Part shown: piece by piece, positions 4,001-49,896 of the stretch
How the letters are laid out: the number at the start of each line of letters is the position of its first letter
Numbering within the stretch: the first letter of the stretch is position 1
From: Polytrichum commune
Taxonomy: Eukaryota; Streptophyta; Polytrichopsida; Polytrichales; Polytrichaceae
Assembly: GCA_950295325.1 (NCBI GenBank)
Contig: OX485808.1
Span: 8,684,501-8,748,500 of the forward strand
Direction of reading: 5' to 3'
DNA: 64,000 bases
Notes under the pieces: model-generated
The model's input: the letters and a program-made list of their open reading frames with translations, nothing else
What the model was told of the DNA's origin: nothing
Database searches by the model: none
Made by a program: the position numbers and the translations under genes

Positions 4001-7000
4001 CATTCTTAGGTGGCTTATGAATTTATTTCTCTTGTCCACTCTTAAAGCATTCATCGCAAATGGTCACATACTCAATTCAGGTTTTGTAAGTGCAATTTTC
4101 CATAAATGACTGAATAAAGTCAAGCTTCTAGGTTGAAAATGCTCCAATCAGTAGAGCTGAAAATGTCCATTTTAGGCCCATAGATGTTGTTAGTAGACTG
4201 ACAGGTGGGGTAGGGTTTGAGGTGCAGCAAGCCCAGTTGCAAACTTTTATCCACGCATGATGACATGAGCATTCTGCACAAGGCCGAGTCAAGCAGGACA
4301 TCAGTTGTGACCAATTTACGCAACCCTTTGGACCGAGTTCTCAGCACGTACGAGTTTTCGGTAGAAGTTGCAGCGCGATTTTTGCGGCTGAAAACTTCCA
4401 ATGCAACCCGAAGGATAGTCCCACGTGCCAAATCTCCCTCCCAGCTAGTGAGCACTCTTTCGATCTGGCCCTGGAAGTACCTGGTCCCCTTCATGCAGAG
4501 TGACATATTTGCAAGGGTAAGAAAATTCTCATACATTCTACCATTGCTCATGTCATTCATTCACTATGATTGTGTTATTAAGTTATTATCCTCTAACTCA
4601 ACATGACTTCTGGTGAAGAGTTGGTTGTTTTGTATACAAGAACAAAGAACAATCTATAACAGTCCATTGAGGGTGAAACTCATTTTGGCATGCCAAGCGG
4701 TGCTAAAATGAGTCTGGTCCTCAAAGAACCGAAATAGGTTGCTCTTCATTCAAATTCAAATACTACCTCATGAAGTTTATTGCATTCACCACAAGTGGAA
4801 AGAGATTATTGATTTGGTTTAGAAAACAACCATTAGAATATCATAGGGCCCCCACTCCTGACAAATAGTCCCATTGAGTTAAGTATAACTCTATTGTCAG
4901 GAATGTTGTTACCCTTGGAAGGTTTAGAGGGCGTTGAGGCTTTTTTGTTCTTGACTTTGTGTCTGAGCCCTTTTGTGCTCTACTAAGTCACATGAGTTTT
5001 TGCGCATTGTGTATATAGGTATTGGCATCATGACCTCTTACCTACCCATGTTATGATTGTGACTCTGATTTGGTGTGTCCAACAAGGGTTGTCACTTAAG
5101 ATACTAATTATGTGATTTGTGTCACCAGCATGATGCCAGGTTAGAGGGGAAATCTGATTGGCCATATTCAACCAATACTACATATGATGCTGTTACAATT
5201 TCCATGCCCTTGGTAGAATTTATACATCATCCGGTCACTTATGATCTTGTCCACAATGGTGCCACACTTCAGGTCTGACTTTGCCTCACCAGTATTTAAT
5301 TATGTGTAACTTTTTTTCAACCAACCAATATCTTGGTTTCTCCTTTTTCTATTGTTACCCTCATTTGTTTGTCAACTTTGTTATGTAGGCAACTCCCTAT
5401 ATGACCCGTCAATTAGTCTTGTGTTACATTGTATCCTAGTTTGTGGGTTTTATTAGAGTTAGACTTGTTGGGATAGATAGAAGAGCAAGGCGTCCTCAAA
5501 TAATGGTTTGCTGCACTATAATCAATGTGCTCCATGGTGTAGGTTGCAGGCTTAACAAATAATTCGTTTGTAGAAGGCGCGGATGTGATTCGCAAGTGTA
5601 TTGCACAGTACCCTGAATTGGGTTATCAAGTGCTTGACGTTGCCAAGGTAGTTCTTCTTGTCTTTGAAATTGGATTCGGATTCTCATTGTTCATGTGCGG
5701 AAATTATGAGTTGTGGTCATGCCTTATCAACAGAACACTTTGAATGTCACGGCACGCTAGTGATAAAATTGATAGAACCTAAAATACAGGAAGCATCCGA
5801 TAAATGAATTATTATTATTATTATTATTATGCTGTTGTACAATCCATGTCTAAGATATGCATTGGAATTTGTGGTGCAGGCAAGGTTAGATGCAATGTTA
5901 TTTGTAGGTTTGACAGAGAAGCACCAGGAATCAGCCACCAACTTTCTCCATCTTGTGCGCAATCAGATCGATGTGCAGTCAGAAGTACTGAATGAGATTG
6001 TCGGGAAGAATACATCTGATCCAGGTCTGATTATTTACCTGAGTCTTTGGACAATGTACTAACCTTTGCCAATGTATCTGTCTCGTCTTGCAGTGAAAAC
6101 ACCTGTGCTTAGCCCATCCTCTACAATACGGTTTATTGGGATTTTGATCATTCTAGCAAGGGTGCAATGATTTGGCAACCACAAGAGGTCCAATAAAGGA
6201 GTCTCAAAGTTATGGTGTTGTGTTCATTTTAAGGCATTTAGTTGACCTATTGCTGAAGATTGACAGAGAAAGACAGTGCAGGAGCAGGACCCATTTAAAG
6301 TGCTGATGGCAGCCTATACTTTATGTGTTGGTAGTCTACGCAATTCTCATTCCGCCCGTCGTGCTGCAGCTATGCAGCTCATTAGGCCTATCAAATTCTC
6401 CAAAGAGGTATTCCAAACTCGTAAACATATTTGTACTTTCTCAAGCCTTAAGAACAGAGTTAATCATAAAGTCTCTGGGTCAAACCTCGGGTGCGAGTTA
6501 GCTAAAAGGTGAGTGTGAGAGCTTATGCATTAAGTCTTCCATGTTTTCTTAAGGCTTAAATTTACATGCTAAACTAGTGGGATGAGGCTTACAAAAACGC
6601 TGGCTTTCTAGCTTGACATACTAGGATCAGTCGACCAAGCTAGCCTTGCATTGGCCAAGGTGGGATCTAACGCAGACATGACTTAGATGCACCCACTTCT
6701 CATAGGATTTGAAACACGCAATTAGTGTGAGATGATTGGCAAATCCAAATAATGTCCATAACCATTTGGAGCTTATACAAATATCTAATTCATTATCAAA
6801 GTGAAGATTGTAGTGTTCATTAAGTGGTCATATAGGTCTTGCCAATCATGTTGACTAAGGTTAGCAAATTTTAAGCATGTAGTCCAATCTCTTCTAAACA
6901 CATGTCTTTTTGGTGCCAATTCTTAGATCCACACCCAACCACGCACCACTCAAATATAGGTGTTAAGATTATTGTTGTGTAGGATTTAGGCACATCCTAA

Positions 7001-8588
7001 GGGGCGGGTCGTATAGGAGAGACCCTATTTGAAATCCTAAAGTTCTCTTTTAAAATTTGAATTGGAAGAGGAGGTCCAAGAGTTCACGTAACTTTCAAAC
7101 TTAGAGTTGGCTCACAATGGGTCCCAAGTCCTAAATCCCAGTTCATTTGAGGTCACTTTGTGCAATCTCAATTGTTGAGAGCATGGAAGTTGGGACTTAC
7201 CACTTCACATGGGGTCCCAAGTCCTAAGTCCCAAGTATGACATGGATGCCTACATGGAAACACTTTGTGGAGGTGAGGCTTGGGACTTGTGTTGAGAGTT
7301 GGGTCAAGCAAAAAGCTAGCCCCAACTTGCAACACAAGTCTTGAGATTTTTTTGCATAAAGGAATCAAGATCCAACTTTAATGGATATAGACCATACTTT
7401 AATGGTTTTTTGAGGCCCAAAAGTTGGGACTTTGCCTCCATGCTGACATACAAGACATTGTAACGAACTCTTAATAGGAAAGTCACTCCTAGTTTGGTCC
7501 TCCCTTGAGGGACTTTGCATGTTGTTTGTGATTGAAGTGCTAGGAGAGTGCCAGTGGCAACAAGAACCAACCACTTAGCATTATGGTGAATGTTTTATTG
7601 TATCATTTGGGTTCTAAATTTCTTGAAAATGTAAAGCCCCAAAGCTCTGTGGGCATTGGGTTCCTAAAATATACATCTTATGTGCAGGAGAGAAAACTTA
7701 TCCCATCAGCCGTGGTGGACGAAATTCTATCGTTGAATTATCTCGACGTGGAACTATACAAGCATGCAGAAAAATTATATGCTAAGCAAGAGAAGTTTCT
7801 CTTGTCAAAGATGCAACTTCAGGTTTTTATTATGACTACTGTTTGCTTGGAATTTCTTACACTCCATTTGTGGATTCTATAGCATCAATAAGAGTAATAA
7901 CACAATAAGAGTAATAACATAATGACATAATTGGACTACGTGCTTATAATATGCCAACTATTCTAGGCTCATTAGTTAACATAATTGGGGGACCTATATG
8001 ATCACTTAATGAACACGAGAATCCTCACTTTGATAAAGAATAACATGTTCATATGAGCTCTAAAAATTATGAGGCAAATTGCCACATGCATGATTTGGCC
8101 ATGTTGCTCATCTTGCACAAATTGCATGTTCCATAACCTACTAGAAGTGGGTGGAAAGAGAAAAGTATCCAAATTAGGCACATCTACCTTATTTTCAATC
8201 CAAGATAAATATTGTAACTGATGACATGGACCTCCAATGTAAAAATATTGTGGGTGGGTAGTGTGAATTCTTAAGTTATTTCCCTTGTTTTCAGTGTGGA
8301 AATAAGCTTAAATGTGAGCTCATATTATTTACTATAATCATTGTCGCAGTAAGGTTGGAGTATTGTAAAGATTGGGTTCGTCTAACAGAGTGTTTATTGC
8401 TTGGGATGCTGCAGGATAAAGATGACCTGGAGGTCCTTTCATGGCTACTATTTTTCATTTGCTTGGGTGTGGGTATGTTTTTGTTTGCTGTGGTGATATC
8501 ATTGAGATATCGAGTGCGAATAGGAAAAGATTTTATACCACTCTGGTTGCGGCGGTTGTTATCGATGCCGGTGCATGAGAAATTGTAG
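1020..8588 (+). CDS. TPST: Plant-type tyrosylprotein sulfotransferase, 10 coding exons
   Basis: Plant TPST moves sulfate from PAPS to tyrosines of secreted peptides (PSK, PSY, RGF and CIF types) in the Golgi. Exons inferred by splice sites and phase: 1020-1068, 3407-3638, 3894-3965, 4228-4516, 5129-5272, 5543-5647, 5880-6024, 6277-6407, 7688-7822, 8415-8588. They total 1476 nt, that is 491 residues, close to the roughly 500 of Arabidopsis TPST. Exon 1 gives a short basic and hydrophobic signal peptide (MPPSNFLHRLLRLLIAG) that joins exon 2 in phase. Exon 2 ends with the PAPS-binding motif FFLHIPRTGG. Exon 4 carries the second PAPS region, RNPLDRVLSTYEFSVE, then IWPWKYLVP. Later exons carry HNGATLQ and AGLTNNS, FVGLTEKHQESA and LDVELYKHAEK. 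The last exon encodes a C-terminal membrane helix (about residues 440-460) and a basic tail, the type I topology of plant TPST. No frame break is seen. The start is chosen because it gives a signal peptide and matches the phase of exon 2. Confidence 0.88.
1091..1113. repeat. Homopolymer tract C14-T9
   Basis: A run of 14 C followed by 9 T lies about 20 bases downstream of the TPST exon 1 donor. Such tracts are often misassembled, so its length is uncertain. Confidence 0.7.
1540..1770. repeat. Dispersed repeat in TPST intron 1
   Basis: This stretch is recognisably related to 17215-17450 and its duplicate at 57105-57305. Shared blocks include CAAGTGCAAA, AAAGGAGAAG, TGTGTGCATACAA, TTCTCAAG and AGTGTTGTGGTGACTA. 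A shorter related piece (CCACATGGCTCAA) is at 30060-30110. It is probably a relic of the inverted-repeat element described at 15585-17810. No coding potential is seen. Confidence 0.55.
3241..3380 (+). repeat. 35-bp tandem repeat, four copies, in TPST intron 1
   Basis: Four diverged copies of a 35-bp unit start at 3241, 3276, 3311 and 3346, each holding GGAGCT...GTCTTGACATCTATTGA. The array ends about 26 bases before the inferred acceptor of TPST exon 2 (3406/3407), where a polypyrimidine tract and branch point would be expected. Confidence 0.8.
6715..7010 (+). repeat. Dispersed intronic repeat, copy 1
   Basis: Related by eye to 29175-29520 in a GST intron and, in reverse complement, to 7945-8180. 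Shared blocks include GGCAAATCCAAAT, TTCATTAAGTGGTCATATAGGTC, ACACATG followed by CTTTTTG(A/G)TGCCA, and GATTTAGGCAC. No ORF. It may be a short interspersed or miniature element, but its ends were not resolved. Confidence 0.6.
7945..8180 (-). repeat. Dispersed intronic repeat, copy 2 (reverse)
   Basis: Read on the minus strand this matches the 6715-7010 repeat (TTTGCCTCATA, GTTCATTAAGTGATCATATAGGTC, GTTAACTAATGAGCCTAGAAT). It lies in the last TPST intron. A short flanking block, TAGGCACATCTACCTTA at 8194-8210, is in the opposite orientation, which suggests a local rearrangement. Confidence 0.5.
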
Positions 8589-19842: not shown

Positions 19843-21466
19843 CAGTGCTCAAAATTGAAGCCCTCATATGGATTTCATTTTGAAGGGCTCTGAAATTTCA
19901 GCATTGCAATTGAAGGGCATATCTAAATCTAGGACGTCAATGGAAAATTTTCAAAGAAATATAAAACTTATATCAAAATTATGCATGATTTGCATGGTAC
20001 ATGCTTCTAGTACAATGAAATAATGAAGAATCAACCATCTAACTCCATCTCTTGAAGTGACAATGCCCTACGCTTGTTGGTTACTGTAGTGGGTTTCCAA
20101 GTGTCAAAAATGCCATTCCAATCCATGAATTCAACTCCCAAATTGTTTAGGCTAACCCTCATCAATGCATCAAGTGTGTCAAGGTTTAGGCATGTTCTCC
20201 TTTCGCTCTTAACCCAATTCCATCTGCTTTGAAAAACCACACTCACAAACAACAGTGCTAGTAGGGATTACAAGTATGGCTTGCCATAGCGACATTAGGG
20301 TTGGCCAATTGATCTTAAACTCTCGGTCACGGCCACAAAAAACCCAAGCTTCATGCATACTTTGGTGTTGACAAGCTGAAGATAACATCTTCACAAATTC
20401 GAGCAACTCCGCATTGGTTTGATCAGCAAGAACAAAGCTCCACTTGAAATGTGTCACCAACCGGTTCAACCATTGCTCAATTAAAGTGCCTCGATCCAAT
20501 GCATCCATGAGATAGTGTTTTGGGCTGAAAAGCCTGGCCGCATTAAAAATGGGCAAGTCGGGGAAGCGATCATTTAGTGAGTCAATAACCTTTTGGACGT
20601 ATAGTCTACCAAGGGTGATGCAATTCTCCAACAAGCCCCCTACATCACACCTGGGGATAGAGTCATAGTGCAAAGTATGCACTTTCTCACAACCAAACCT
20701 ATCAACATACAAGATCTCTCCAGTTGGCACCACGTTGTGCAAAAAAAATCCCAAATGTTTGGTTGTTGTGCCAAAATTCACACGCAAATAGTGTCTTCGC
20801 AACAAATTGATTGTCACATCGATAGTAGAGGCTATGGATGTGATATCTACGAGATCAAATTGAAATTTCCAATTGAGCTTGTTCAACTGAAGTAGCACAT
20901 CAGCCAACAGATGGATGAAGAATTGGAACTATAGAGAGGTGATATTTGTGTACCATGCGTGTTCTTCAGCTTGCCATGACTCCAAAATTGCAAGCATACA
21001 AAAAACCATCCTCTCCATGACCATGCCGCGTGATAGCCACCGTACGGAATGAATATGCAAAACCACTCGGCTCTCTTCGCGAAATGCAAATAACAATTTC
21101 GCCAACATGCCTCGCCGAATCACCGATCGTCCCAACCACTCATATACTTTATTGGCAGCTTGGTCAATGAATCCAAGGCATGGAAATTCGTCATTAGCGT
21201 CCTTTGCAGCTAGAGCCTCTCGGTGAGCTATGTAGTGTGTTCCAACCAGATGGGGTACTAGATCTCGAAGTCGGGCCACCACTCTTTGATGCACACCAGT
21301 CAATGCTCAAAATTGAATTTTGAAGGGCTCTGAAATTTCAGCATTGCAAATTGAAGGGCATACTTAGACATGAGGATTATGTTTTGAAGGGCTGTTTTCC
21401 TTGAGGTATTTTTTGAAGTCCCAAAACCCATTTGAAGGGCACTGAAGACTTCAATTTTGAGCACTG
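19843..21466. mobile_element. Internally deleted hAT element
   Basis: An 18-bp terminal inverted repeat, CAGTGCTCAAAATTGAAG, is at both ends. Perfect 8-bp target duplications ATCGCCAC lie at 19835-19842 and 21467-21474. Subterminal repeats (GAAGGGCTCTGAAATTTCAG, ATTGAAGGGCAT) occur near both ends, typical of hAT transposase-binding regions. The interior holds a damaged C-terminal half of a transposase on the minus strand. Confidence 0.88.
20031..21303 (-). pseudogene. hAT transposase, 5'-truncated and interrupted
   Basis: Minus-strand reading from 21303 gives hAT core blocks (HQRVVARLRDLVPHL, VGTHYIAHREALAAKD, HSVRWLSRGMVMERM), then SPKHYLMDALDRG, then the dimerisation region WPTLMSLWQAILVIPTST, CECGFSKQ, LNLDTLDALMRVSL, MDWNGIFDTW. 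The style is of ZNF862-like hAT proteins. An in-frame TAG near 20927 follows NITSL, and a frame change follows SKQ near 20225. The N-terminal zinc finger and first part of the DDE domain are missing, so it is inactive. Confidence 0.82.
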
Positions 21467-21812: not shown

Positions 21813-22021
21813 GAGCGTCCCCAGCAGCCTCGCCAACCTGGAATAAAACGGCATTCCGGTATTGTAGGTGGCGGGTGCAAAAAAAATGGATCCCCAGGAA
21901 GGCCCGCCAACGCCATAAGAGGAGAGCGGGCGGGCATAATTGAAGACGTTTTCCGCCATTTTTGCCTCGCTTGGCGTGCCGAGAAGAGGTCCGCTACCCA
22001 AGAATATCGTCGGAAATAGGC

Positions 22022-23419
22022 ATGTCAGGGTGTACCACTGCTGACGTCATCGCGGGTGGGGCGAAGCGGAAGGGGAAGAATTTCCTGCCCGAGGAGGAAG
22101 AGCAAACATGCAGGAGTTTTATGTATGTCTCAACAGACGCGCGGCGGGGGATCGGGCAGAAAAAAGCTACGTTTTGGATTGCTGTTGCTTCGCATTATGC
22201 AAGAAACAAACCTGCAGCATGTCCGGAGCGACCTGCGAGGAGTATTGAGACGAAGTGGGGAGATCTGAAGGCGAGCATCGCCAAGTTCGTGGGCTGCTAT
22301 GAGCAGATCAAATCCCTCGACGAGAGCGGGCGAATAGAGGACGACATCATCCTTGATGCATTGCAGCTTTTTGAGCAGAAGGTGGGGAGGCCATTCGCCC
22401 ACAAACATTGCTGGTTGCTGCTCCGAGATCACCCGCGATTTGCTGCCATCTTCAGGGCTTCAGGGTCGAAGCGCAAGGCTCCAGGCACTCAGGGTTGTGA
22501 TCTGCCGGTTGACAGGAGGGAGGCTAACTCTCCCGATGAGCAGCCACGTGAAGGAGTCGACGCCAACGTGAACCTGCACAGGCCACAAGGAGTGAAGTCA
22601 GCAAAGTCTGAACACAAGGACATGAGGGAGAAGGAAGCAGCCTTGAGGGCGAATGCGAGGGCAACAGCCGATTTCGCTCAAGCAACTTTGAAGAAGGCTG
22701 AGCAGATCGCCCAGCAAAATGCCTTCAGCCTCTTCACGCTGGAGGATTCCCTTATCACGTGCCAAGTAGCCCGTAGATGGCTCCTTCTCCGCCGCCAGCA
22801 AGAGCTCAAACGGCTTGAGAAGGAGATGGCAGCCGAGGAAGACTCATTGAATGCAGGCGATGTTGTTGCGCCGAATGCGGGTGTGCGAGTGCACACAGGC
22901 ACCATCCCCGGATGCGCTGCCGCACCCACAGATCTTTTCGCTCCCTCCTCGACTCCCCTTTCTCCTTCACCCCCAGTGCAGCCAGATCTCAATGTAGGGG
23001 CCACTATGGGATTGGAAGGTGATGACGATGAAGACCAAGAGGACTCCGATAGCGAGGCAGCCCATCGGAATCGCTACCGCAACTCTGAGCCCAGCCTCTA
23101 CATGCAGAGTGCACAATTGAAAGCTAGGGCACATCAGCGTAGTTATGATAGTTTAGGTGGTTGCGAAGGGGAAGAGATGTGTAGGGTTCCCCCTTCGCAA
23201 CGTCGCCGCACTGGCGAGTACCCTAACGGCGAAGTTCAGTTTAGGGAGGCCTCGAAGCAGGTCCTCTGGAATGAGACCCTGGCTTCCGAATATGCCACCA
23301 GAAATTGTTTGCCTGCTATTCCTCCCTCGATGCCAATCCCTCCACCCATCGGTAGTCATTACCAAAACATCCCTTGGGCAGCTCCATCGCCTTGGCAACC
23401 TGGTGCAAGAGTGTTATAA
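22022..23419 (+). CDS. PIF/Harbinger Myb/SANT-like accessory protein (NAM-associated type)
   Basis: The 465-codon frame from this ATG is the second PIF/Harbinger protein, which in characterised elements binds DNA and partners the nuclease. Residues about 25-135 read as the trihelix/Myb-like plus NAM-associated pattern: a glutamate-rich start, then TDARRGIGQKKATFWIAVAS, RSIETKWGDLKASI, KFVGCYEQIKSL and DALQLFEQKVGRPFAHKHCW. The middle (about 200-285) is Lys/Glu/Ala-rich and probably coiled coil. The C-terminus is Pro/Ser-rich with an acidic patch (EGDDDEDQEDSDSE). An in-frame ATG 60 bases upstream exists, but this one is closer to the usual start. No frame break. Confidence 0.82.
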   Translation: MSGCTTADVIAGGAKRKGKNFLPEEEEQTCRSFMYVSTDARRGIGQKKATFWIAVASHYARNKPAACPERPARSIETKWGDLKASIAKFVGCYEQIKSLDESGRIEDDIILDALQLFEQKVGRPFAHKHCWLLLRDHPRFAAIFRASGSKRKAPGTQGCDLPVDRREANSPDEQPREGVDANVNLHRPQGVKSAKSEHKDMREKEAALRANARATADFAQATLKKAEQIAQQNAFSLFTLEDSLITCQVARRWLLLRRQQELKRLEKEMAAEEDSLNAGDVVAPNAGVRVHTGTIPGCAAAPTDLFAPSSTPLSPSPPVQPDLNVGATMGLEGDDDEDQEDSDSEAAHRNRYRNSEPSLYMQSAQLKARAHQRSYDSLGGCEGEEMCRVPPSQRRRTGEYPNGEVQFREASKQVLWNETLASEYATRNCLPAIPPSMPIPPPIGSHYQNIPWAAPSPWQPGARVL

Positions 23420-25051: not shown

Positions 25052-26362
25052 CTAATATGCATTGTCCCCTTTATGCTCCCATAGGTGTTGTACAAGGTCG
25101 TCACGCAAGTTGTAGTAAGTATCAGTGTCCTCAATGAGTGCAGTTTCTCGTGTCAAATCGGCGAAGGTGAAACCTCGTCTCATCCCCGATGATGATGAAG
25201 ATGCAACTCCTGGTGTTAGAATTTCCAAGTCTCTACCACTCTCATCCTCTATAATCATATTATGCATTATAATGCAAGCATACATAACATCCGAAATGTC
25301 TGATGTATTCCACAACTTGCACGGTTGTGTGATAATGCTCCACCTAGCTTGCATCACTCCGAAACATCGTTCTACATCCTTGCGCGCAGATTCTTGAGCT
25401 CCTGAGAAGTTACTTTCTTTTTGGTCCTCGGGGTCCTGTAGGGATTGGACGAAGCAACTCCACTTAGGGTAAATGCCATCGGCGAGCAGGTAGCACTTTT
25501 CATACCAGTTCCCATTGACCCTAAATCCAACAGTACTGGCAGCGCCATGAACCAACTTGCGTACCAGTGGACTGCGATCCAGCACATTTAAGTCGTTGTT
25601 GCCACCCGGGAGGCCGAAAAATGCATGCCAAACCCATAAACTTTGATCGCACACTACTTCGAGAATTATACTCCTTTTTTTATCTTTATCTTGAAATGCC
25701 CACTGCAATGCAACTGGACACAACTTCCATTTCCAATGCATGCAATCTATGGAACCAAACATACCTGGCCACCCCCGCTCCTGATTTATCTCCATTTGTT
25801 TCACAATATCATCTTGTGAGGGATCCCGCAAATAGTACTCTGTAAAACATCGCCTAACCCCCCTGCACCACCGCAACATCGCCTCTTGAGCAGTGCTTTC
25901 AGCCATCCTAGTGTATTCTTCTTGTGCCTTTGATGAGGTCCCGTACGCTAGCATACGCATTGCAGCCGTGGCCTTTTGAAGACTGCTTAACCCCAACTTT
26001 CCTGCAGCGTTCCTTTTTTGAACGAAATAATCGTCAGACTCTGTGATTGCATGCAATATACGGAGAAAAAGAGGTTTCCTCATGCGATAAACGCGTCTGA
26101 AATCAGTGTCATCAAATATGGGGTCGTCCGAGAAATAGTCTTTGAAGAGCAAGGCATCGTACATCTCGGCTAAACGCTCTTTGTTCGCCCTCCTCCCTAG
26201 ACGACTACCACCCCGCTGCCTTGGTTCATCGTCGCTGGAAACATTGTCATATTGTTGGGCTAGCGTTCTCATAACGAATTCCTCTCCTTCATCATCCTCT
26301 AGATTAGCCTGAATGTCTTGGTTGTACCTTCTCCAACGATTCGACATTGTGATGTACCTCAA
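25052..26362 (-). CDS. PIF/Harbinger DDE nuclease (HARBI1-like transposase)
   Basis: One uninterrupted 436-codon frame, the usual size for plant PIF/Harbinger transposases. The DDE-4 catalytic acidic residues are all present: D206 in GSIDCMHW, D295 in LLADGIYPKW and E331 in RKDVERCFGVMQ; D257 in GGNNDLNVL is also kept. The N-terminus is acidic, followed by FRRVYRMRKPLFLRI, the family's helix region. M6 (MSNRW) is an alternative start. The enzyme would cut and reinsert elements with GAGC(A/G)TCCCC ends at TTA/TAA, with the Myb-like protein. No inactivating change is seen, so it may be functional. Confidence 0.9.
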   Translation of the reverse strand: MRYITMSNRWRRYNQDIQANLEDDEGEEFVMRTLAQQYDNVSSDDEPRQRGGSRLGRRANKERLAEMYDALLFKDYFSDDPIFDDTDFRRVYRMRKPLFLRILHAITESDDYFVQKRNAAGKLGLSSLQKATAAMRMLAYGTSSKAQEEYTRMAESTAQEAMLRWCRGVRRCFTEYYLRDPSQDDIVKQMEINQERGWPGMFGSIDCMHWKWKLCPVALQWAFQDKDKKRSIILEVVCDQSLWVWHAFFGLPGGNNDLNVLDRSPLVRKLVHGAASTVGFRVNGNWYEKCYLLADGIYPKWSCFVQSLQDPEDQKESNFSGAQESARKDVERCFGVMQARWSIITQPCKLWNTSDISDVMYACIIMHNMIIEDESGRDLEILTPGVASSSSSGMRRGFTFADLTRETALIEDTDTYYNLRDDLVQHLWEHKGDNAY

Positions 26363-26921
26363 ACAAACTAAACAACAATCCTGCGGATACGAATGGCAAA
26401 ACTAAATGATAATGGCAAAGCCAATAGTTTTAATATATAGGATGGAACGTGTGCGAAGATGTACTACATGAAGTTGGTCGTACACCCTAAACCCCTACAC
26501 GAAGATGGCCTCAACGTGTGGCAAGGAAATTTTCAATTGGTATCCCACGTATTATTGCTAGACAACAAAATGAATAAGACAAAAATAAGGCAAAGTCATC
26601 CATGCAATGTTCATGCATTTTAGACATCGATGTATTCAAGAACATTTGTGGCTCTCATTAGGTCGCAGTAGATATTGTTGAGCATATGCCTTGTGACTTT
26701 GGGCAAGCCATTCAACACATTATGCTATAAATTTCATTTGACGTGTAACTTCAAATCCAAAGTGTCACGTGGCGTTCTTAAAAACAAATATGAATGTCAA
26801 TTGACATCTACATTTTATTCTAAAATGTCACCTCAATTTTGGCTTACACAATATTTTAGGAAAACTAATATTTTGAATAAGCAATATGCAATCTTGATTT
26901 GTAACAAGAAAAAAAAACTTA
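26363..26921. other. Harbinger nuclease 5' flank, no gene seen
   Basis: AT-rich sequence between the nuclease start and the nested hAT fragment. It should contain the nuclease promoter on the minus strand. Degenerate GTGTCA and TTGACATCT words recur, and similar words (GTGTCAACTGGCATGTG, GTCAATTGACGTG) lie at 27315-27390, which may be remnants of the nested element. Confidence 0.35.
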
Positions 26922-38993: not shown

Positions 38994-39002
38994 TAGGCAG
39001 AA

Positions 39003-39580
39003 CCCTAACATTACTGGACCCAAAGGTCTTTACTGCGTTTCGGAAATCAAGGCTCTGCAGGACGCTGTCAGATGGGACCATGGTATCTGCGTAGAATCAC
39101 GAACAGGGCCCCCCACGCAGGGGAAGCCGGTGCCAACCTCCCCGGGCCGCGTCTGCTACCCTGTTAGCTCTCAGCCAGCCTATCGTCCACGCAAGCTGAC
39201 ACGCTGGCCTCCACGGTGGACAACCGTTGGACGTAACAGGTCATTCCCAACTGCCGAGGTTACAGCCATCCATCATGGCATTGCAATGGATGGACTATCA
39301 TGTGGATCCTCCCCCTAAACCATCCATCATGTGGGTGGTATCCCATCGACCTCGGGGATCGCGCTCTCCATACTGTTTCAAAAAATGCCCTCCGCCACCC
39401 CCCTTCATTCTTTGTAACCTGCTCTTCATCATACACCCTGGATTTCTGCCGCCATGGGCCGCGATGCGATTGAAGCAATGATGGAGTGAAGGGTGCAGGA
39501 TCGTCGCACAGTGAGGTCAGGGTTTTCGATCACAGTGGGTACAGCGATGGCGAGCGACAAGACTTCCGGGTTTTTTGAAG
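39003..39580 (+). repeat. Left terminal inverted repeat of the MULE
   Basis: Matches 49307-49887 in reverse complement from the first base to GACAAGACTTCCGGGTTTTTT. The open frames in it are mirrored on the other strand of the right TIR, which explains why they look conserved; they are not treated as genes. Inner words CGTAACAGGTC and GAGGTTACAGCC are present. Confidence 0.88.
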
Positions 39581-40580
39581 GGTGTAATGAGTCATCAGGT
39601 CGCCTTGATCGTAACTTACACATTTGCTGCCGCCATGGAGGTTGATGCGATTCAACCAAGGCGATTGCACAATGATGCGGAGATTGTTTGCGGGCAAGAT
39701 CGCCTCAGCCACACTTAGTTTTGGAGCTCCATTTCTTTTCAAAGTTTCTTTGTTCCTGTGCTTTTGATTCATCGTAACGTAGACACTTTCGAAAGAGTCC
39801 AGAAGTTTTCCGCAATGAAATGTGTTGTTTGCATTGATGTGAAGGCAACAATGATGTACTGAAGCTATGATGACCTCGCCGACTGCTCACCCCACACATG
39901 GTCGTTATAGTCACCCCTGCTGACTGAGTTTTCCTATCATGTCTTTAGATCTGCACACTCAACTATGTTTTTTGTTTGATTGAGACCTGCTTTTACTGCG
40001 CAGTGCACATTTAGGTTGTATTTGACTATCTGGCAAGGAGTGAAGCGACTAAAACAATGATGTCCTGATGCGGTACATGCAAGATCTTCTCAGAGTGATT
40101 GCCTTGCTATGAATGTACTTCCTTCCTCCTTTAGTTGTCATTGCAGTCATGTTACACATCACATAATTGCGAAGTTTTGTAATTATGACCTCATTTCGGT
40201 CCCCAATTCTACAGGAGCAGGCGGAGCTCGGATAATCAAAGATTTAGCTTAGACCTGATTTGGACCGAATTTCATGTAAGAAAGTTGACAATTTTAGGGT
40301 GCATCGTCAGTTGAACCTTCACGGTCCTTTTGTTCTCCTTCGGTGCGAAGAAACTTGTTTACCACTGCTTTCGCTTGCACGTAGCCAAGAAGACTTACAC
40401 TAAAAGCATGTTTTAGTCTGGCCCACACTAATCATCAGCGACCCACATTAATTGTGTTGCAACCACAGGGTGACTACTAACATCGGGCGCCATATGGCAA
40501 TTTCATCTTAAAATCTTCAAGACCACTCTCTGTAATTCATATTCCTTCCAGAAGAACCAACACTTCGCCCACCGCAACAC
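39581..40580. promoter_or_regulatory. MULE 5' region upstream of the transposase
   Basis: No gene recognised. The sequence between TIR and transposase start should hold the transposase promoter. A short duplication of the TIR motif CTGCCGCCATGG...GATGCGATT is at 39628-39660. One CATGTTAC motif is at 40148-40155. Confidence 0.4.
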
Positions 40581-43500
40581 ATGGAGCTTTCGTACGAGAT
40601 TGTGTACCAGGAGGTACACAAGGCAAAGTTTCAGCGGATCCGCAATTTAGTTCAAACTCCACAGATAGGCACTTTCATGCATACATATCTTACATGGGCA
40701 TCCGACATGCGGGTGAAAGGGAGGAGGGCTGATCCCATGACTGTTGATACAGTGTCGGTTGCGTATATACCTTGGGCAAGGGTCGAGGATTTTGTGAAAG
40801 GTGAGGAGGCGCGCACTGATGCTCCCTGCAAATTTGTGTGCCAGGGTACTCCAACAAACGAGATGGGGAAACTGAAGTTCCCTCGTTGTAACAGCTACTC
40901 TGGCATCCTCAGGTGTAACATGCTATTAGCATTGCAGTGTGCATGTTCCAATGTTACAATATCTGGCCAACCATCTTCCCTGTTATATATGACTCTCACC
41001 GTTACGACCTGCTATCATCCCCACCACACAGATATCATTGTCAATATGGACCAAATGACAATGCATCGCACATACCACTGGTTACAAATGATATGTACCA
41101 GAGGAAAAGAAAACTCGACCTCAAGGGCAAATACATTCCAAATGGGAAGGGCCACACAGGTCCTCGGACATCAGCAAAGATGCGAGGATCAGGCCAACGA
41201 AGGGGATGCCAGTGTGGATTTGTGGTCAAGCAATTGTACCTACAGCCTGCAGTGGCAGAAATAACAAGATACAAGAGCAGATACTCAAGCCACCTGTCGG
41301 CAGATGTTCGTGAATTTATCATGAGCCATTTGCGATTGGAATTGTCTATCCTACAGATAATGGGCAAACATAGGAAACGCTTCATGGAAATGTGTGAGAG
41401 AGGTGAGGAGCTCACCCGGGACCTCTTCATCTCTGAGCAGAACATCCGTAACGTTGTTGGCCGCCTTGCCATAGAGACCTACAAACGCGACAACAATATT
41501 GCAAAATCTGTGCGCATGTGGGTGCAAGAAAATCATTTTCTTGTGTTCTACTACAAAGAATCGGGTGTACACATTCGTGGAGCTATCACACGGGACAATA
41601 TTCCGTTCACAATAGGCATCCAAACATCTTGGCAACAAGATATGATGCTCAAACACGGGCACAAAAAAGCCGTCTCCATTGACGCCATATTCGCGACTAA
41701 TGAGAACAAGGTTTGTGCCTATAACCATTCCCACAGCAGCATGTTACGGAGCACTTTCCCTACGTACCTTGCTCCAACGCTAATTTTTGGTGGTTTTTGT
41801 TGTTACAGTTTCCATTGTACACCTTGATGGTCTTCGATGACTGGCTAAATGGAGTGTCTGTGGCGTACATTATCACTTCTAGCTCCAAGCAACCTGATCT
41901 TCAACCTTGGATGAGGGCGCTTGCGAAGAAATTGACGTCGGTGCAAGGAGATTGGATGCCGAATGCATTCATTACAGATTGTGCCCAAGCGGAGATTGGG
42001 GGCTTGCAGTGGTATGGCCCGGAGTGAAAGTATTCTTGTGTTTGTAGCATGTTCATCGCGCATGGCTGAAACAAGCGGTAGCAAAAATAAAAGATCATGC
42101 CATTAGGGCTGGTGCGCTAAAGGGGTTGGGGCGTATTATGTATGACACAAAGTATCCTCAAGGAGATGAAATGGGGCCTTGGGCTATACGACAGTTGAAT
42201 ACTCTTATGGATAGCTTCCCTGTTGTGAGCAGTTTTTGGGCTTACTTCAACAAACAATGGGCAGACAAGACGCACATGTGGGTTGTGGGCCATCGTAACC
42301 TGCCATATGCGGGCTATGACACAAATGCAGCAATTGAAAGCTACCATTCTAACCTTAAAGCCACCTTGCGTGCATCAAAAGGTAGAGCGCATGGACGCCG
42401 TTTGAACTGGGTGATATACGAACTCACAGGGGAGATTCCCTCCCACTACTGGTACCAGGCGATGAAGAAACAACATGGGTTTGTCCCCAACTTAAAACAA
42501 TAGCAATTTGTTATAAATGCAGTGCTCAAAGCGAGAGAAATTCCTGATAGTTGTGTCACTCTCCCCATTGCAGATGACGGTCCGGCATTGGTAACGTCAA
42601 TGAACAACCCCACTAAACTGTACTCTGTGTACAACCCAGACTACGAGTGGGGTTGTTGCGATTGCGTCTGGGCACTAAAGGGGAACATATGTAAACATCA
42701 GATAAATGTTCTCATGATACTCCATCCTAACCTTGTGGATCCCTTGCAGGGACAACTGAGGGAGGTCGTGGTAACATGCTGGATCCCGTTCTTCATTTCC
42801 CAGAGGATTTCGCCGATACGGGGCCCATGTGCCCAACTCCTACGCTGTGGCGTCCTAGTGGTAGCTAGTGTGTAACACAATCTGGGGAGGACATGGAGAA
42901 ACAAGCGCGTAACCTCGCAGAGGAGTTCATGGACGCTGCCACCGGTGATCGATTTTTGTTGAAACACCTCGTGGCAGACTTGCATGTAGTTCGTGGGAAA
43001 CAACAAACGTTGTTGGCTCAAATTAAACATGGACTGGTGGAGCCATCCCAAGTAGAGGTGCACTTCCGGCCCAACGAGGATGGCAACAACATGTCCCTCA
43101 AGCGTAGGAGAGATTTCCTGGACCGTAGATAGGTGACGTCGGCCAAACGGTTTGTAACGTGCGACTGTTGCATGGCCCAGTCCATGTTACGACTTTTCCC
43201 ACATGCAGGACGACCACGGTGCCCATATAAGGGCCGGGCGTTCGTTGCAGTTGCACACTCTCCTTCCTCCTCTCTTCCGTTTTGCCCGCAACCTGGTCGG
43301 CTTCCTTGTGGTGTACCGGCTGGCGTTTTGTATGGAAGGGTTTCTTGTGCTTTTGTTTCCCTAAGCATGGCATCTCTTCACGTTACACGGGTTAGCGCTG
43401 CGGTTTGGAAGTGGTTTTGCAGGTGTCCCGAGATCATTGGACCCGTTTACGACACGTCCACCGATGAGGAGTTCTTCACACCCCCAACATCACCTCTGCC

Positions 43501-43738
43501 CTGTTCCCAGCAAGACCATGTGGCCGTAACGACGGGATCCCCCACCGCCTACATATCCCCGATGCATGGCGTGCAGAACCTGCTTTCACCATCGCAAGCG
43601 CTTCGACTTCGGCGGCGACATGCTGAAGTTGTTCGGCAACTCACATCCCCGCCCCCGGTTGTCAAACCTGCCCCACAGGCTCCACTAAAGGCATACCAAC
43701 GTCCGGTCAAGGTCTATAGGCCTAGTTGGGCTCCATAG
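40581..43738 (+). pseudogene. MULE transposase, frame-disrupted
   Basis: The first ATG reads MELSYEIVYQEVHKAKFQRI. Inferred introns 40913-41031 and 41711-41808 have GT-AG ends and keep phase. The MULE core is visible: first Asp in SIDAIF (41681), second in FITDCAQAE (41978) and Glu in NAAIESYHSNLKA (42336), followed by a SWIM-type finger, CDCVWALKGNICKH (about 42657-42700). Damage: a frame change in the G run near 42000, a TAG at 42044-42046 where the family has LWHVHRAW, a TAG at 42501-42503, and another frame change near 42750. Downstream pieces (MEKQARNLAEEF, 42893-43132; and the proline-rich 43430-43738) look like a C-terminal extension. It cannot make full-length protein without recoding. 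Confidence 0.8.
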
Positions 43739-44411
43739 TGCAACATGCTAGGCAATTGTTGTGAACATGATGTTAAAAAAGGGTTCTGAATTGGAAGTGA
43801 TTGCCGCTGCATTTTTTGTGAGGTTTGTGGCATTTCTACACTGCGTCGTAGTTGTAACATGTTTGAGCCCTTGCGCTGTAGCATGTGGGCCATAGTGACA
43901 CTCAAGTTATTTCTAGTATGTCAACTGTGTTACAAAAATAATCAATCCCCATCAACAACCCTGAATTCCAACCCGCGCGCAAACATGTGACCCAACCTCC
44001 ATGTTTTACAATGCATTCTAGCTACCCTTTACACAATGAAGGCACATGTTACTCTGCTAATGACCGAAGAGTAATCCATGCTGCTTGCACAGAACAATAA
44101 TCCATGTGGTAATCGGTGGTTGCCTTATTGTAGATATAATGGTAGAACACATAACATGTCTTGCTGCCCCTTACACCTATGGAATGCCATGTTACAAAAA
44201 TTTGGATTCAATCATCCTATGCAAGTATGTCAACAAAATGCTGCCAATGTTATACATGTTACACATTGTACACATGATCCTTGGGTGTAGATGGTATGGT
44301 GTAGATAGTGAGTATTACTAATATTGGTATTGTCTTGTATCCCCACCCTAGCACTATTGATGAATGATTCCTGCTGGCCAACTATACATGGTCCGCTGAT
44401 GTAACATGGAC
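43739..44411. other. Convergent intergenic region of the MULE, motif-rich
   Basis: Spacer between the 3' ends of the two MULE genes. It contains five of the 14 GTAACATG/CATGTTAC motifs (43854, 44045, 44188, 44255, 44401). No coding sequence is recognised; it probably includes both polyadenylation regions. Confidence 0.5.
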
Positions 44412-47400
44412 CTAATTGGAAGCCGTCGCACGGTCTGTATCTTGTTCGCCTAGGTGCACGACGGCCTCCTCGGCAATTTGCGAAACCTCTGCAAATGCGT
44501 TATTTTCCGTGTCTTTGGGCGCCTCGGCGGTAGTTGCTGCAGTTGCAGGTGCAGGTGTGAGAATAGGGGAAACTGAGTCTTGCCACTCAAAATCTATTTG
44601 GCTGGGCAACTCCTCCAGCGTCTTGTCTTGCGTCATTGGTATGTGGAAGGCTAGTCCAACTGGCGTGGCCAAATTGCCAGAACTTTCTGGAAATGACTCC
44701 TGCACTTCGACGTGCTCAAGGGGATCAGCAACACTCTGTCCTGGCGGATGCACTTCTGAGTGCTCCCACTGCTCTCGCACAATGCTGTCTGCAATATTGC
44801 GGAGCTCACACAAGTACTCACTGCGCTCCACAGGCTTAACCATGATATCTGGCATACCACACACAAATTTTCATAGTTCTTGTTAACTCTTTGCGACTGG
44901 ATGCATGAGGCAAAACATCTTGTAACATATGGAATTGACAAAAATTACCTGGCATCGCAAACACGTAACCAATGTCTAGGTCCTCTCAATGCTGGAGCCA
45001 TTGGTTGTAACAAGCGCGGGGGGCCGAAGAGTCAGCTGGACGCTCCCGAATCACCCATGCCTTCAGTCACGTTTGCCTGTCGTGAAAGGCCATGTCTTGC
45101 ACTGCCCTGAACCGTGTTGTGTTACACCACGTGTGCAACTCTGTCCACCATTCAGGCGTGCCATTCATGAAAGCTTGAGTGGCATCATCCACTTCAGCAA
45201 CCCACTGCTCGTGAGAATCGACCGGCCTGGCGGCCGCGAAGAGGAGGAAATCTTCAAATTTCAAGTACCTGGTTGCGAGGCGCCATGCACGCGAGCCATC
45301 CCCATCGACTTCTTGTGCGAGCTTCGACCATTCAGCCACATTGCCAACAATTGAGCCAAGGGAAGGATGTGATACTAGAGGAGGTGATGTAACATGAAAT
45401 GTAAGGAAACAACGAATCAGCAAGACTGACCAAGGCACAGGATAAATCCTCTGAACATGGGATTGTTGCAAAAGCAAAGAATGCACATCCCAACCTTCAG
45501 CAAATGAGTGAGTCAAAGGGTAGGGGGGTCTGAAGGAGGCACAAAGAGGGTTAGCTACAAATGATTCATAGAATGGATGCCACCCCCAAGTCGCATGCAG
45601 CAAGCGCGGGTAGTGCTCATCATCCCAGTCTTTCATTGCTTTGGCAATGGCCTCCGTAACCTTGGCCTGGCAGTCCTCCTCCCACTGTTTTCGTTGTGTC
45701 TTCACCTCGTGCATGCTGAGAGTGTGTTCGACGTACCTGACAAGAGCACCGATCTCAACTGCCACCGCCGCAACGTCATTGACCTTGCTGAGAGTGGCCA
45801 CAACAGCTTGTGTGATCGCGGGTACCACTTCTGGTTTGGCCTGCTTCAACATCAGCAAAACCCTGTTACGACGCATTCGCTGACTAAACCCATGTTACAG
45901 GAGTTGCATTTCTAAACTCATGGCAATGTATATAGTACACCATGAAATAAATGTTGCAAGATAAACCCGAAATCCCTGAAGTGCAGACATTGCAAATACA
46001 CCATAAAGTACATGCTGCAAGTTACAACCGAAATCCCTGAAGTCCAGACATTGCAGAGAAGGCATGTAGTAAATGCTGCAAGTTACGACCGAAATCCCTC
46101 AAATGCAGACAGTGCAAATACACGATGAACTAAATGCTGCAAGTTACGACCGAAATCCCTGAAGTCCAGACATTGCAAAGAAGGCACGAGTGCAGGGATT
46201 TAATGCGCAGGTTGTACCTGATGAGAAGGCCCGTGAAATCTACCGTAGGCCGCCCACAACCTGTCCATGAACGATGGGTCCTTCTGCCACTTCTCAATCT
46301 CCTCCTCAAAGGCGTGAAATTCACCACACTCCAAATCGAAATTCAACAAACCACACGCCATGAGATGAAACAAACCTGGGGGTTGAATTGGGGGCCTCAA
46401 CGCAGGTTTGGGGTAGTCCATCTTCACACCCGAACGCGCCGCACTTGCAGCCTTAACATAAAAGGCTTGACGATCCTTCCGGAGCCCCAAGGCCACATCC
46501 TGCAATCTTGTGGAAGTCTGCATAGGTGAGACAAGTGCCATAGGGGAATGACCCGGCGCATGTGGAGCGGGAGTGGGATGGGGCAAAATGGCAGCCCTCT
46601 CTGGGGAGGGGCTGCGGGTTTGGATAGGCGTAACATGTATGGGCTGGGGAGGCGGTCGTCGTGAGTCACCACTTGTAGTTGCAGGCCGTGAGCTCCTTGG
46701 CGGGTGCGCCGACTGCCGATCGCCACGAACATGCTGGGGTTGTTTCGTATGTACACTCTTGAACGGCTCGAATGAAATACTCGGTGGCCATCAGCCATCT
46801 GCGCGTGCGAGCGTTTGTTCGGTCAGCTTGGCTGCGCCTCGCTCTCATCATCTCCATCTTCCTCTAGGTCAACGTAAGCGGCTGCGGTTGCGGGAGCAAT
46901 GTGTTGCCTGGGGGCTCGTTGCGGTCTCGGCTTCCCTGGTGGCTGCGAATCTCCCACAGGGGCTGGGCAGGCAACCAAATCTTCTAGTGTGGGCGGCATG
47001 AATTGTCTCACCTGCACTCTCGCTCCAGGGGGAGGACAAGTGACGTCCCTGAGCTTAGGGTTCAAGTCTAGCCAAATTGAATTGTCCTGCAAGCTCTCCC
47101 ATACAAAGCCATCCCCGCGTTGCAAGGCAAGCTTGAGGTCCTTGCCTTGTTTTGTAGTCTTCAGATTCAGATAAACCGGGAGCTCCCACTTCGAGCCGGT
47201 CTCATCCACAGGTCCTCTCGGGCAACCAGCCACACGGTGGTCCGTCAACCGCAGCTTGCTGGGGAAGGATCCTTTGCAATATACACAAAGCCAATCGTCC
47301 CTGGCCTTCTGCACATCCCTAGACCTATTTCGAGTACACTCTAGTTTCAATTCGATGTACACTCTCCTCCTAACTCGCTGCTCCACCCAACCGGCCGAAT

Positions 47401-47635
47401 CCCTATTAGCATAGTAAGTAACTTGGTCATGTTCGGGCAGGCGTGCTCTTTTTCAAGGCTCCATTTCCTGCAAAGAACAATGCAAGTCAATGGCCAAGAA
47501 CAACGCAGTTTGAGGTGCCAACATGAATGGAGGGCACTGGATGTCCGGTACGGATGCTGTGTGTTGTAACGTGCGAGGTTCGTCACACTTGCTGCCCCCC
47601 ACGGCAGGGAACTGGCCAACGGCCATGGCGACCAT
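44412..47635 (-). CDS. MULE second gene, unknown function, C2HC-like finger
   Basis: Read on minus. Likely coding pieces: about 47635-46823, 46586-46200, 45876-45067 and 44864-44412, separated by intron-like DNA; exact splice sites were not resolved. The first piece runs from MVAMAVGQFPAVGG into VEQRVRRRVYIELKLECTRN and a zinc-finger-like segment CVYCKGSFPSKLRLTDHRVA followed by GCP, a C2HC pattern. An in-frame TGA near 47460 means a short intron or a nonsense change there. The second piece holds LMACGLLNFDLECGEFHAFE. The third (270 codons) is the longest, with helical stretches and Trp-rich WATWGWHPFYESF-like sequence (actual: ATWGWHPFYESF) and WWTELHTW. The last is acidic and Ala/Thr-rich. 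I recognise no family. The position is that of mudrB- or VANC-like second genes, but no sequence relation is claimed. Confidence 0.55.
45921..46195. repeat. 61-bp minisatellite, about 4.5 copies
   Basis: The landmark CGAAATCCCT occurs at 45968, 46029, 46090 and 46151, exactly 61 bases apart. Units contain TGCAAGTTACGACC and CAGACATTGCAAA. The array lies in an inferred intron of the MULE second gene. Confidence 0.85.
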
Positions 47636-49306
47636 GGGCAGGTACAGAGTGGAGCACTAGGTGACCCCTAAACCCTATATACGGAACACTGCAATGCCTC
47701 CAGGAAAAAAAACTAGCAAAGCACACATAGAAACCCTAAGCATGCACCCTAGATGCCATAGCAAAGAAGTGCCGCAGATATTGAGAATGCAGTACACCTA
47801 AAACACCCTAAGGTATGCATGAAAACGCCCTAAACCCTAAACTAGAAGAGCAATATGGAGGAAACAGGTGGCGGGTTCATCTACAATGAACGGAGAAAAT
47901 AACACATACGGCCTAGGGGCATGTTCGAAACGTATTGGGCACCCTGAGAATAAACTACGAGCCTGAAGCAAACAAAGAGCATGGACAGAAGAAGTGTCGG
48001 GACGATCTGGACTGAAGTTCGAAAAAAAAACCTTCAACCGGGGGGGGCCATGCTTGAATAGGCAGCGCTGGCACAAAAGAAGAGGATCAGGGAAAAAATG
48101 CCAAGAATACATAGATTGTACTAGCGAAAACACATATCCAACCGGGGCACGACCCTAATCAGCATATACCCTAAACCAAAACAAGAGGATGGCGGAAAGA
48201 AGTGCTGGGACATTCTAGAATGAACTTCGAACTAAACATCTACAACCGGGGCATGTTTGAAAACGTTGCGGTGCCACAGAGGAAGACGATCGGGGGAAAA
48301 AACGCCGAGGCCACATAGACTGCACTACACCCTAAACACATCCAACCGCGGCATGATTGAAAAGGGATGGACGAAAGAAGTGCCGGGAAAACAAATAAAG
48401 AACTGCCGGGAAAACAGAGAATGGAGTGCCGGGAAAACACAGGAAAGAAGTGCCGTGCTGACACAGGAGAAACAGATGGAGGAAAGAAGTGCCGCGCTGC
48501 CACAGAAGAAACAGATGGAGGAAAGAAGTGCCGCGCTGCCATAGAAGAAACAGATGGAGGAAAGAAGTGCCGGGAAAACACATAGAACTGGGGCATGTGG
48601 GAAATGCGATATGCGGTGCCACAGATGAAGAGGGTAGAGGAGAGAAGTGGCGACAAAACAACGAATGAACAAGAAAAGACACAAAAAGCCTAAGCCTGCA
48701 CGCTAAATGCCATATGCGCATCCAAAGAATTATGTGCCGCTACATGAGAAAATGATGCAGCTGCTGAGTGCCCGGAAAACATGGAAAGAACTCGAACAGA
48801 CACACAACAAGGCTGAGCGTGCATAGAAACGGCACATGCACTACCACAGATGATGCAGATGGAGGGGTGCAATGCAAGGAAAAGATAGGAAGGTCTCACA
48901 TGTTACAAAATCCAAGCGCTCCGTGGATGTTGTACACCCGTTGTAACCACCTTTTCCAGGACTGACGCTCGTGCGACGTTCGACGTACTGCGGTGAAATC
49001 GCCGCTCTCCCTGCTTCTCCTGCCACTTTCACAATGACACCCACACCATGAGGAGGACGTCAATGCTCCTCAAACGCCAATCACAACCTCATCAATCCAA
49101 TCATGTGATGTGTAACCTGATTGCATTATTACAAAAGCAAAGGACCACACACAATTGGTACATGGCAATCGTCATCACGCGATCTTCCTTGTCACTCTTT
49201 AAGACATCATACTTGCATTCTATTACCTCAAGGATGACACTCCAGTGCGCCACAAATCTACACTGTACAGCAAATGAGTAGGTTATGATCATGGCGAAGT
49301 GATGGC
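47636..49306. other. MULE right interior with GAAAGAAGTGCCG repeats
   Basis: Region between the start of the second gene and the right TIR; it should hold that gene's promoter. From 48180 to 48590 the word GAAAGAAGTGCCG recurs, including a 39-bp tandem array. Long frames on several phases at 48240-48721 are a side effect of the repeats. One CATGTTAC is at 48899. Confidence 0.5.
48442..48585. repeat. 39-bp tandem repeat, 3.5 copies
   Basis: GGAAAGAAGTGCCG starts at 48442, 48481, 48520 and 48559, spaced by 39 bases, each followed by GAAACAGATGGA except the last, partial copy. The unit length is a multiple of three, so it stays open in several frames. Confidence 0.85.
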
Positions 49307-49887
49307 TGATTTGAAAAAACCCGGAAGTCTTGTCACTCACCTCAGCTGTAACCTCTGTGATCGAAAACCCTGACCTCACAGTGCGACGATCCTACACCCT
49401 TCACTCCATCATTGCTTCAATCGCATCGCGGCCCATGGCGGCAGAAATCCGGGGTGTATGATGAAGGGCAGGTTACAAAGAATGAAGGGGGGTGGCGGAA
49501 GGCATTTTTTGAAACAGTATGGAGAGCGCGATCCCCGAGGTCGATGGGATACCACCCACATGATGGATGGTTTAGGGGGACGATCCACATGATAGTCCAT
49601 CCATTGCAATGCCATGATGGATGGCTGTAACCTCGGCAGTTGGGAATGACCTGTTACGTCCAACGGCTGTCCACCGTGGAGGCCAGCGTGTCAGCTTGCG
49701 TGGACGACAGGTTGGCTGAGAGCTAACAGGGTGGCAGACGCGGCCCGGGGAGGTTGGCACCGGCTTCCCCTGCGTGGGGGGCCCTATTCGTGATTCTACG
49801 CAGGTACCATGGTCCCATCTGACAGCGTCCTGCAGAGCCTCGATTTCCGAAACGCAGTAAAGACCTTTGGGTCCGGTAATGTTAGGG
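49307..49887 (-). repeat. Right terminal inverted repeat of the MULE
   Basis: Reverse complement of 39003-39580 with few differences, ending GTTAGGG at 49887 directly before the target duplication TAGGCAGAA. Confidence 0.88.
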
Positions 49888-49896
49888 TAGGCAGAA

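Follow-up and report, generated by a model that had tools for sequence, protein, structure and literature searches.

Self-recognizing antisilencing systems have so far been described only for VANDAL-type Mutator-like elements (MULEs), as far as the available portions of the literature extend. The TnpA protein of En/Spm offers a likeness, in that an element protein binds short motifs repeated within its own element and counters methylation there, and a difference, in that the motifs are subterminal and the element belongs to an unrelated superfamily. An EMBO J study of 2022 reportedly deals, by its title, with antisilencing in eudicots. According to the accessible sections of two papers (PMC5735166, PMC10398659), VANC proteins carry DUF1985 and DUF287, VANC21 binds YAGTATTAY, VANC6 is linked to AGTTGTCC/AGTTGTAC, the motifs lie in noncoding tandem repeats, and VANC evolves faster than the transposase. 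Extracts of two further papers describe ULP1-carrying VANC genes (KIU) of angiosperm MULEs (PMC13317346) and MULE diversity (PMC6446971). In the searched open-licence literature, available in part, we found none of these systems reported outside flowering plants or built on a finger protein. Here, we analyzed a 64,000-nucleotide stretch of the Polytrichum commune genome (assembly GCA_950295325.1, contig OX485808.1, positions 8,684,501 to 8,748,500; referred to here as the window), which contains a two-gene MULE (positions 39003 to 49887) rich in one 8-mer, GTAACATG/CATGTTAC. We consider it probable, though far from certain, that GTAACATG is a family-specific binding site of an element-encoded protein, the likeliest being the second-gene product, which would likely oppose silencing.

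The element (10,885 bp) is a genuine MULE-type insertion, and its family is named F1. MULEs make 9- to 11-bp target duplications and typically, if not universally, have long terminal inverted repeats; this element has inverted repeats of 578 nt (complementarity, 96%) with a perfect 9-bp duplication, TAGGCAGAA, on both sides. The plus-strand gene is, judging from its predicted protein, that of a MULE-type transposase: its exon-3 pieces are 34 to 62% identical to their counterparts in other families, and the Pfam MULE model (PF10551) matched this interrupted copy at an E value of 0.015 (16.2 bits, under the 27.6-bit cut-off). The second gene, on the minus strand, has approximately three exons. 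In L001, a copy 97% identical to that of the window, both the first second-gene exon and the final exon of the transposase are open; in the window copy, the former is split across two frames and the latter is interrupted. The features are as follows, with approximate exon limits where indicated.

38994..39002, no strand: left 9-bp target site duplication TAGGCAGAA (sequence)
39003..49887, no strand: complete MULE-type element, family F1 (inverted repeats and 9-bp target duplication)
39003..39579, plus strand: left terminal inverted repeat (577 bp), no GTAACATG, three GTAAC (repeat search, word count)
40566..40910, plus strand: transposase exon 1, approximate (tblastn between copies)
41033..41710, plus strand: transposase exon 2, zinc-cluster DNA-binding-like region, approximate (copy comparison)
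41800..43129, plus strand: transposase exon 3, MULE catalytic and SWIM-like part, the latter by eye (weak Pfam MULE match, tblastn); three pieces in the window copy, open over 477 codons in L001
43355..43735, plus strand: small conserved open reading frame (ORF) 3' of the transposase (matched in all 11 copies tested)
44415..44870, minus strand: C-terminal exon of the second gene, limits approximate (matched in all 11 copies tested; 21 of 21 in a later count)
44821..45879, minus strand: second gene, middle exon, approximate, with a domain common to L021, L022, and L034 (copy comparison)
46203..47452, minus strand: second gene, first exon, with C2HC finger (two frames in the window copy; 486 open codons in L001)
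49311..49887, minus strand: right terminal inverted repeat (577 bp), no GTAACATG, four GTAAC (repeat search, word count)
49888..49896, no strand: right 9-bp target site duplication TAGGCAGAA (sequence)

The ORF at 43355 to 43735, between the transposase and the spacer, may encode a third protein or be the last transposase exon. The telomere-like CCCTAA starts the terminal inverted repeats (39003 to 39008 in the window), and CCCTAAA-type words recur within several F1 copies. A 61-bp tandem repeat (four copies, 45936 to 46179) lies between two second-gene exons; its units contain variant GTAAC cores only, and the arrangement is reminiscent of VANC target arrays.

A previous reading of the window, made from its letters alone (the sequence-only reading), had counted 14 exact occurrences of the 8-mer in the element where chance would give well under one. 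All 14 coordinates proved exact, against 0.41 expected under a first-order Markov model. Its single match elsewhere in the window was also found (2.2 expected), although at 33873 instead of 33883. The 15 matches in the window compare with a mean of 2.4 and a maximum of 6 in 100 shuffles. The sites in the element are listed below.

40148..40155, minus strand: GTAACATG site (word count)
40915..40922, plus strand: GTAACATG site, in 19 of 20 alignable copies (word count, alignment)
41740..41747, minus strand: GTAACATG site, in 16 of 21 copies (word count, alignment)
42771..42778, plus strand: GTAACATG site within a transposase exon, in 14 of 21 copies (word count, alignment)
43183..43190, minus strand: GTAACATG site (word count)
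43854..43861, plus strand: GTAACATG site (word count)
44045..44052, minus strand: GTAACATG site, limited to the window copy and L001 (word count, alignment)
44188..44195, minus strand: GTAACATG site (word count)
44255..44262, minus strand: GTAACATG site (word count)
44401..44408, plus strand: GTAACATG site (word count)
45389..45396, plus strand: GTAACATG site within a second-gene exon, limited to the window copy and L001 (word count, alignment)
45891..45898, minus strand: GTAACATG site (word count)
46630..46637, plus strand: GTAACATG site within a second-gene exon (word count)
48899..48906, minus strand: GTAACATG site, in 14 of 21 copies (word count, alignment)

By eye, the sequences around the 14 sites show no relation to one another, so the sites are not copies of a longer repeat. 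A longer-repeat or tandem origin of the exact sites was ruled out on this ground and by their lack of tandem arrangement, the 61-bp repeat holding only variant cores. One-base variants clearly above expectation in the window were GTAACCTG (4), GTAACTTG (4), GTAACGTG (3), and GTAACAGG (3).

By the terms of the sequence-only reading, its idea would fail if the 8-mer were equally frequent genome-wide or absent from sister copies encoding the same second protein; neither outcome was seen. Its genome-wide frequency is ordinary (18,003 occurrences in 407.8 Mb, i.e., 0.044 per kb; backwards pattern, 15,817), and this background ruled out an 8-mer that is merely abundant. Searches of the genome returned at least 106 and at least 99 matches for two second-gene exons and at least 150 for a transposase exon, with approximately 40 loci (by eye) where second-gene and transposase matches lie close together. 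We sampled the window copy and 20 sister copies (L001 to L020; 9 kb fetched per sister). The motif was present in 20 of 20 sisters, and the 21 copies held 281 sites in 189 kb (1.49 per kb, approximately 34 times the genome rate). Each copy contained 10 to 16 sites versus 0.30 to 0.41 expected, and GTAACATG was the sole 8-mer to reach 10 in every copy; the next, TGTAACAT, overlaps it. Pooled contexts extended the site to T, T/C, GTAACATG, Y. Three F1 copies (L020 [G000 C1:28883910-28892910], C3:19741242, and C5:50423728) have identical scores for two exons, which suggests recent transposition of the family.

Where the sequence-only reading had placed the sites in coding, intron, and spacer DNA, some do lie in exons, but most are noncoding: 11 of 14 in the window, and 217 of 281 (2.93 per kb) in the 21 copies, versus 64 coding sites (0.56 per kb), some of which may sit in introns missed by the exon limits. 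Such a density, highest in the spacer and introns, would also suit a second protein that bound the motif simply to activate or repress transcription and took no part in silencing. We regard this as quite unlikely, since a promoter role would not be expected to need sites spread over approximately 9 kb, introns and exons included.

The sites are both retained and turned over, which fits selection for motif number. The 281 sites occupy 68 alignment positions; among 16 representatives less than 85% identical, 214 sites fell at 65 positions, 31 of them private to one copy, against approximately 5.8 chance sites expected (P ~2e-13). Noncoding sites were kept in 927 of 1976 pairwise comparisons (46.9%) versus 4.1% for other noncoding 8-mers, and in pairs less than 70% identical, in 553 of 1387 (39.9%) versus 1.4%, figures to be read with the caution that, where noncoding DNA is diverged, its alignment may favor words that match. 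Coding sites were kept in 247 of 699 comparisons (35.3%) versus 16.5% for other 8-mers. They also exceeded synonymous-codon shuffles (56 versus a mean of 12.3 and a maximum of 24 in 1000 shuffles) under an earlier exon mask, in which the C-terminal second-gene exon of 8 of the 21 copies was counted as noncoding. That mask gave 225 noncoding sites and a retention of 46.5%, in place of 217 and 46.9% with the corrected mask. It also underlies a table of the 40 commonest 8-mers, in which the repeated telomere-like CCCTAAAC was kept at 12% and 8-mers overlapping GTAACATG at 4 to 46%; AACATGCA (42%) and CATGCACA (38%), neither of which lies inside GTAACATG, may extend from conserved sites.

As judged from the aligned copies, the number of GTAACATG sites per copy is thus maintained by retention plus gain. 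Chance inheritance was ruled out by the retention far above that of other 8-mers and by the 31 private positions. Some positions are common to most copies (40915 in 19 of 20), as they would be if an ancestral copy, in which chance or tandem duplication had made the 8-mer frequent, had passed its sites to its descendants. This account is extremely improbable: it is contradicted by the turnover, the flanks are unrelated, and the sites are far better kept than other 8-mers.

Thirteen related loci (L022 to L034) were fetched by the relatedness of their transposases to that of the window. All 13 encode a related transposase, and 12 have a strong 8-mer of their own. TGCAGAAC (family A) occurs 17 to 20 times in L024, L027, L028, and L031 and 11 times in L030, where other repeat-derived words rank equal to it; the first four loci are near relatives (the transposases of L028 and L024 are 95% identical). 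TGAAGGAC (family B) occurs 8 to 18 times in L025, L026, and L029, alongside TGAATGAC. The remaining motifs are GTGACACT (10 in L022 and 9 in L032), TGCACTAC (9 in L033), and TCCAGGAC (8 in L034). In L026, 12 of the 18 motif copies sit in tandem arrays (by eye), as do 5 of 18 in L024. Because the family motifs were picked from the same loci, independent support comes from the agreement between loci and from a cross table, in which each motif reached approximately 1 to 2 per kb in its own family and mostly less than 0.3 per kb in others. Exceptions were GTGACACT in L023 (0.50 per kb) and in the window flanks (0.17 per kb; 9 in 53 kb), and GTAACATG in four family A loci (7 in 32 kb, 1 to 2 each). 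Families A and B have different motifs with transposases 72 to 81% identical, and the fetched F1 copies have a single motif despite transposase pieces 87 to 93% and second-gene pieces 56 to 96% identical to those of the window.

Several MULE families of one genome therefore each keep a private motif. This is hard to reconcile with a motif that is the target of a host factor (a silencer or an activator) and not of an element protein, because each family has a different motif that is rare in the others and because retention of the sites would not be favored for a silencing target; we consider such a host factor very unlikely.

A finger pattern (C-X2-C-X12-H-X3-5-C/H) in long frames was found in the second gene of 21 of 21 F1 copies, in L021, in L034, and in L035, the DNA upstream of the ULP1-type second gene of L030; the scan picked out nothing else among L001 to L035 and the window. 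The L035 finger module also has matches in L034 and, on the second-gene side and within approximately 4 kb of the DNA fetched, at L024, L025, L026, L027, L028, L029, L031, and L033. A first view from F1 queries alone, that ULP1-type families lack a finger gene, was rejected: the finger exon lay beyond the fetched stretches. The F1 middle domain matched L021 (E value, 3e-55), L022 (5e-6), and L034 (5e-4). Together, the finger and middle-domain matches indicate that most of these families share a finger protein, with ULP1 in some and not in others. The genome has at least six family groups; each has its own motif, and most have a diverged second protein.

L021 (G000 C3:22240800-22250799) is a separate case. 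It has a second-gene homologue on the minus strand (4993 to 6054 and 6097 to 7593; open frames of 354 and 499 codons) with a conserved C2HC finger, in surroundings of 36% G+C and with no transposase match in 10 kb. It may be a host gene, domesticated from a MULE or ancestral to the MULE second gene.

Peptidase_C48 exceeded the Pfam cut-off in L025 (E value, 3e-6) and L026 (5e-7), and frames resembling these were recognized by eye in L024, L027, L029, L030, and L033; all are ULP1-like frames in MULE second genes of a seedless plant. In F1, Peptidase_C48 had no match in four window second-gene ORFs or two L001 exons. DUF1985 matched none of 10 second-gene and related ORFs (E value up to 2), and a genome search gave no match above the cut-off (best E value, 0.95). 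The matches obtained with these 10 ORFs did not include DUF287, the library model of that name being unconfirmed and no genome search having been made. PDB sequence searches with two second-gene exons gave no match.

Within the F1 second protein, conservation per 20-residue bin is 0.84 to 0.93 in the finger module and 0.36 to 0.79 in the other bins of its exon. No other well conserved stretch of this otherwise fast-changing protein is as long as the module, a pattern that fits a finger predicted to read the motif.

We propose that the approximately 10 to 16 sites per copy would be kept by selection, mainly across noncoding DNA, and that the second-gene product would most likely bind GTAACATG through its N-terminal C2HC finger module. 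Bound along the element, the protein would mark F1's own copies, and this marking would keep them expressed. By analogy with VANC for VANDAL elements, the binding may do so by countering DNA methylation or silencing by the host. In related families, diverged forms of the second gene would be paired with diverged motifs.

The same motif could instead be bound by the transposase, with a specificity for each family (e.g., in element assembly or compaction, or in its own transcription). This merits some credence, although we think it unlikely. A related transposase accompanies all 13 related loci, its zinc-cluster region differs between families and is conserved within F1, and GTAAC-core variants occur in the terminal repeats (three and four in 577 bp). 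Nevertheless, exact GTAACATG is absent from both terminal repeats of the window copy, the expected place for a transposase site, and sites occur as far as several kb from the ends, 5 of the 14 within 550 bp of the inter-gene spacer.

Several observations weigh against binding by the second-gene product as an antisilencing factor. One finger usually reads 3 to 4 bp, so that a site of 8 to 10 bp would need a dimer or further contacts. Two middle-exon bins equal the finger module in conservation (0.88 and 0.90), and the transposase is better conserved within F1 than the module is. Between L030 and the family B loci, the zinc-cluster region is 58 to 75% identical and the finger module 56%; the two vary to a similar degree, so that the second gene does not stand out by covariation. 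Neither the pattern scan nor the finger-module matches listed gave a finger near L022, L023, or L032, and L023 has no clear motif, the word ranking of its fetched stretch giving only a weak TGTAACAC (6). The exact sites of the window copy are not in tandem arrays. The variant GTAACCTG, though in excess, was kept at 2.7% only, and GTAACGTG at 23% (earlier mask), so that an excess of variants need not mean function.

The best reading, by analogy, is a VANDAL/VANC-like self-recognition built on a different protein; the system is likened to VANDAL/VANC by its apparent working and is not a member of the VANC family. As set against the available parts of the VANC papers, both systems consist of a MULE with a transposase and a faster-evolving second protein, and both have a short family-specific motif concentrated in noncoding DNA, with different motifs in related families. 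The tandem arrays of L024 and L026 likewise recall VANC targets (PMC5735166). The differences are the C2HC finger module in place of a detectable DUF1985 (in the scanned second-gene ORFs and, above the cut-off, in the genome), the long terminal inverted repeats, the dispersed arrangement of the F1 motif in the window copy, and the host, a seedless plant. The ULP1-like domain in the second genes of L025 and L026 is shared with KIU, from which the elements differ by the lack of a ULP1 match in the scanned F1 exons, by the undetected DUF1985, and by the N-terminal finger.

The suggestion of the sequence-only reading that the element recognizes itself is strongly supported as regards element-specific, selected, dispersed motifs resembling binding sites. 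Its comparison with VANDAL/VANC is strengthened by the sister families, each of which tends to have a motif of its own and most of which have a finger-bearing second gene. Its idea of an independent origin holds only so far as DUF1985 was undetected in the scans above, and a very remote homology may exist. A wider reading, which we put forward tentatively as possible rather than probable, is that several MULE families of a seedless plant each encode a C2HC-finger protein, in some cases with a ULP1 protease, that recognizes a private dispersed 8-mer. These would form a second, independent class of transposon-encoded sequence-specific antisilencing proteins, with repeated protein-motif coevolution and without DUF1985/VANC.

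Elsewhere in the window, we recognized by eye a PIF/Harbinger-like pair (21944 to 23419 and 25052 to 26401; a SANT-like protein and a DDE transposase) and what resembles a hAT fragment (20209 to 20928). The genome also has four matches to LEAFY and 19 to dynein heavy-chain stalk pieces; to our knowledge, flowering plants have no dynein heavy chains. These matches point to a plant whose sperm are motile, in keeping with a seedless host.

The finding is larger than the sequence-only reading stated, extending to several families, most of which encode a finger protein of one family in diverged form. With at least six family groups available in a single genome, the protein-DNA code and its coevolution could be tested directly. 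If the proposal is true, these proteins would be a possible source of compact tools for locus-specific epigenome editing, and escape from silencing via private DNA motifs would be a recurrent selfish strategy, reached here with a different protein in a seedless plant.

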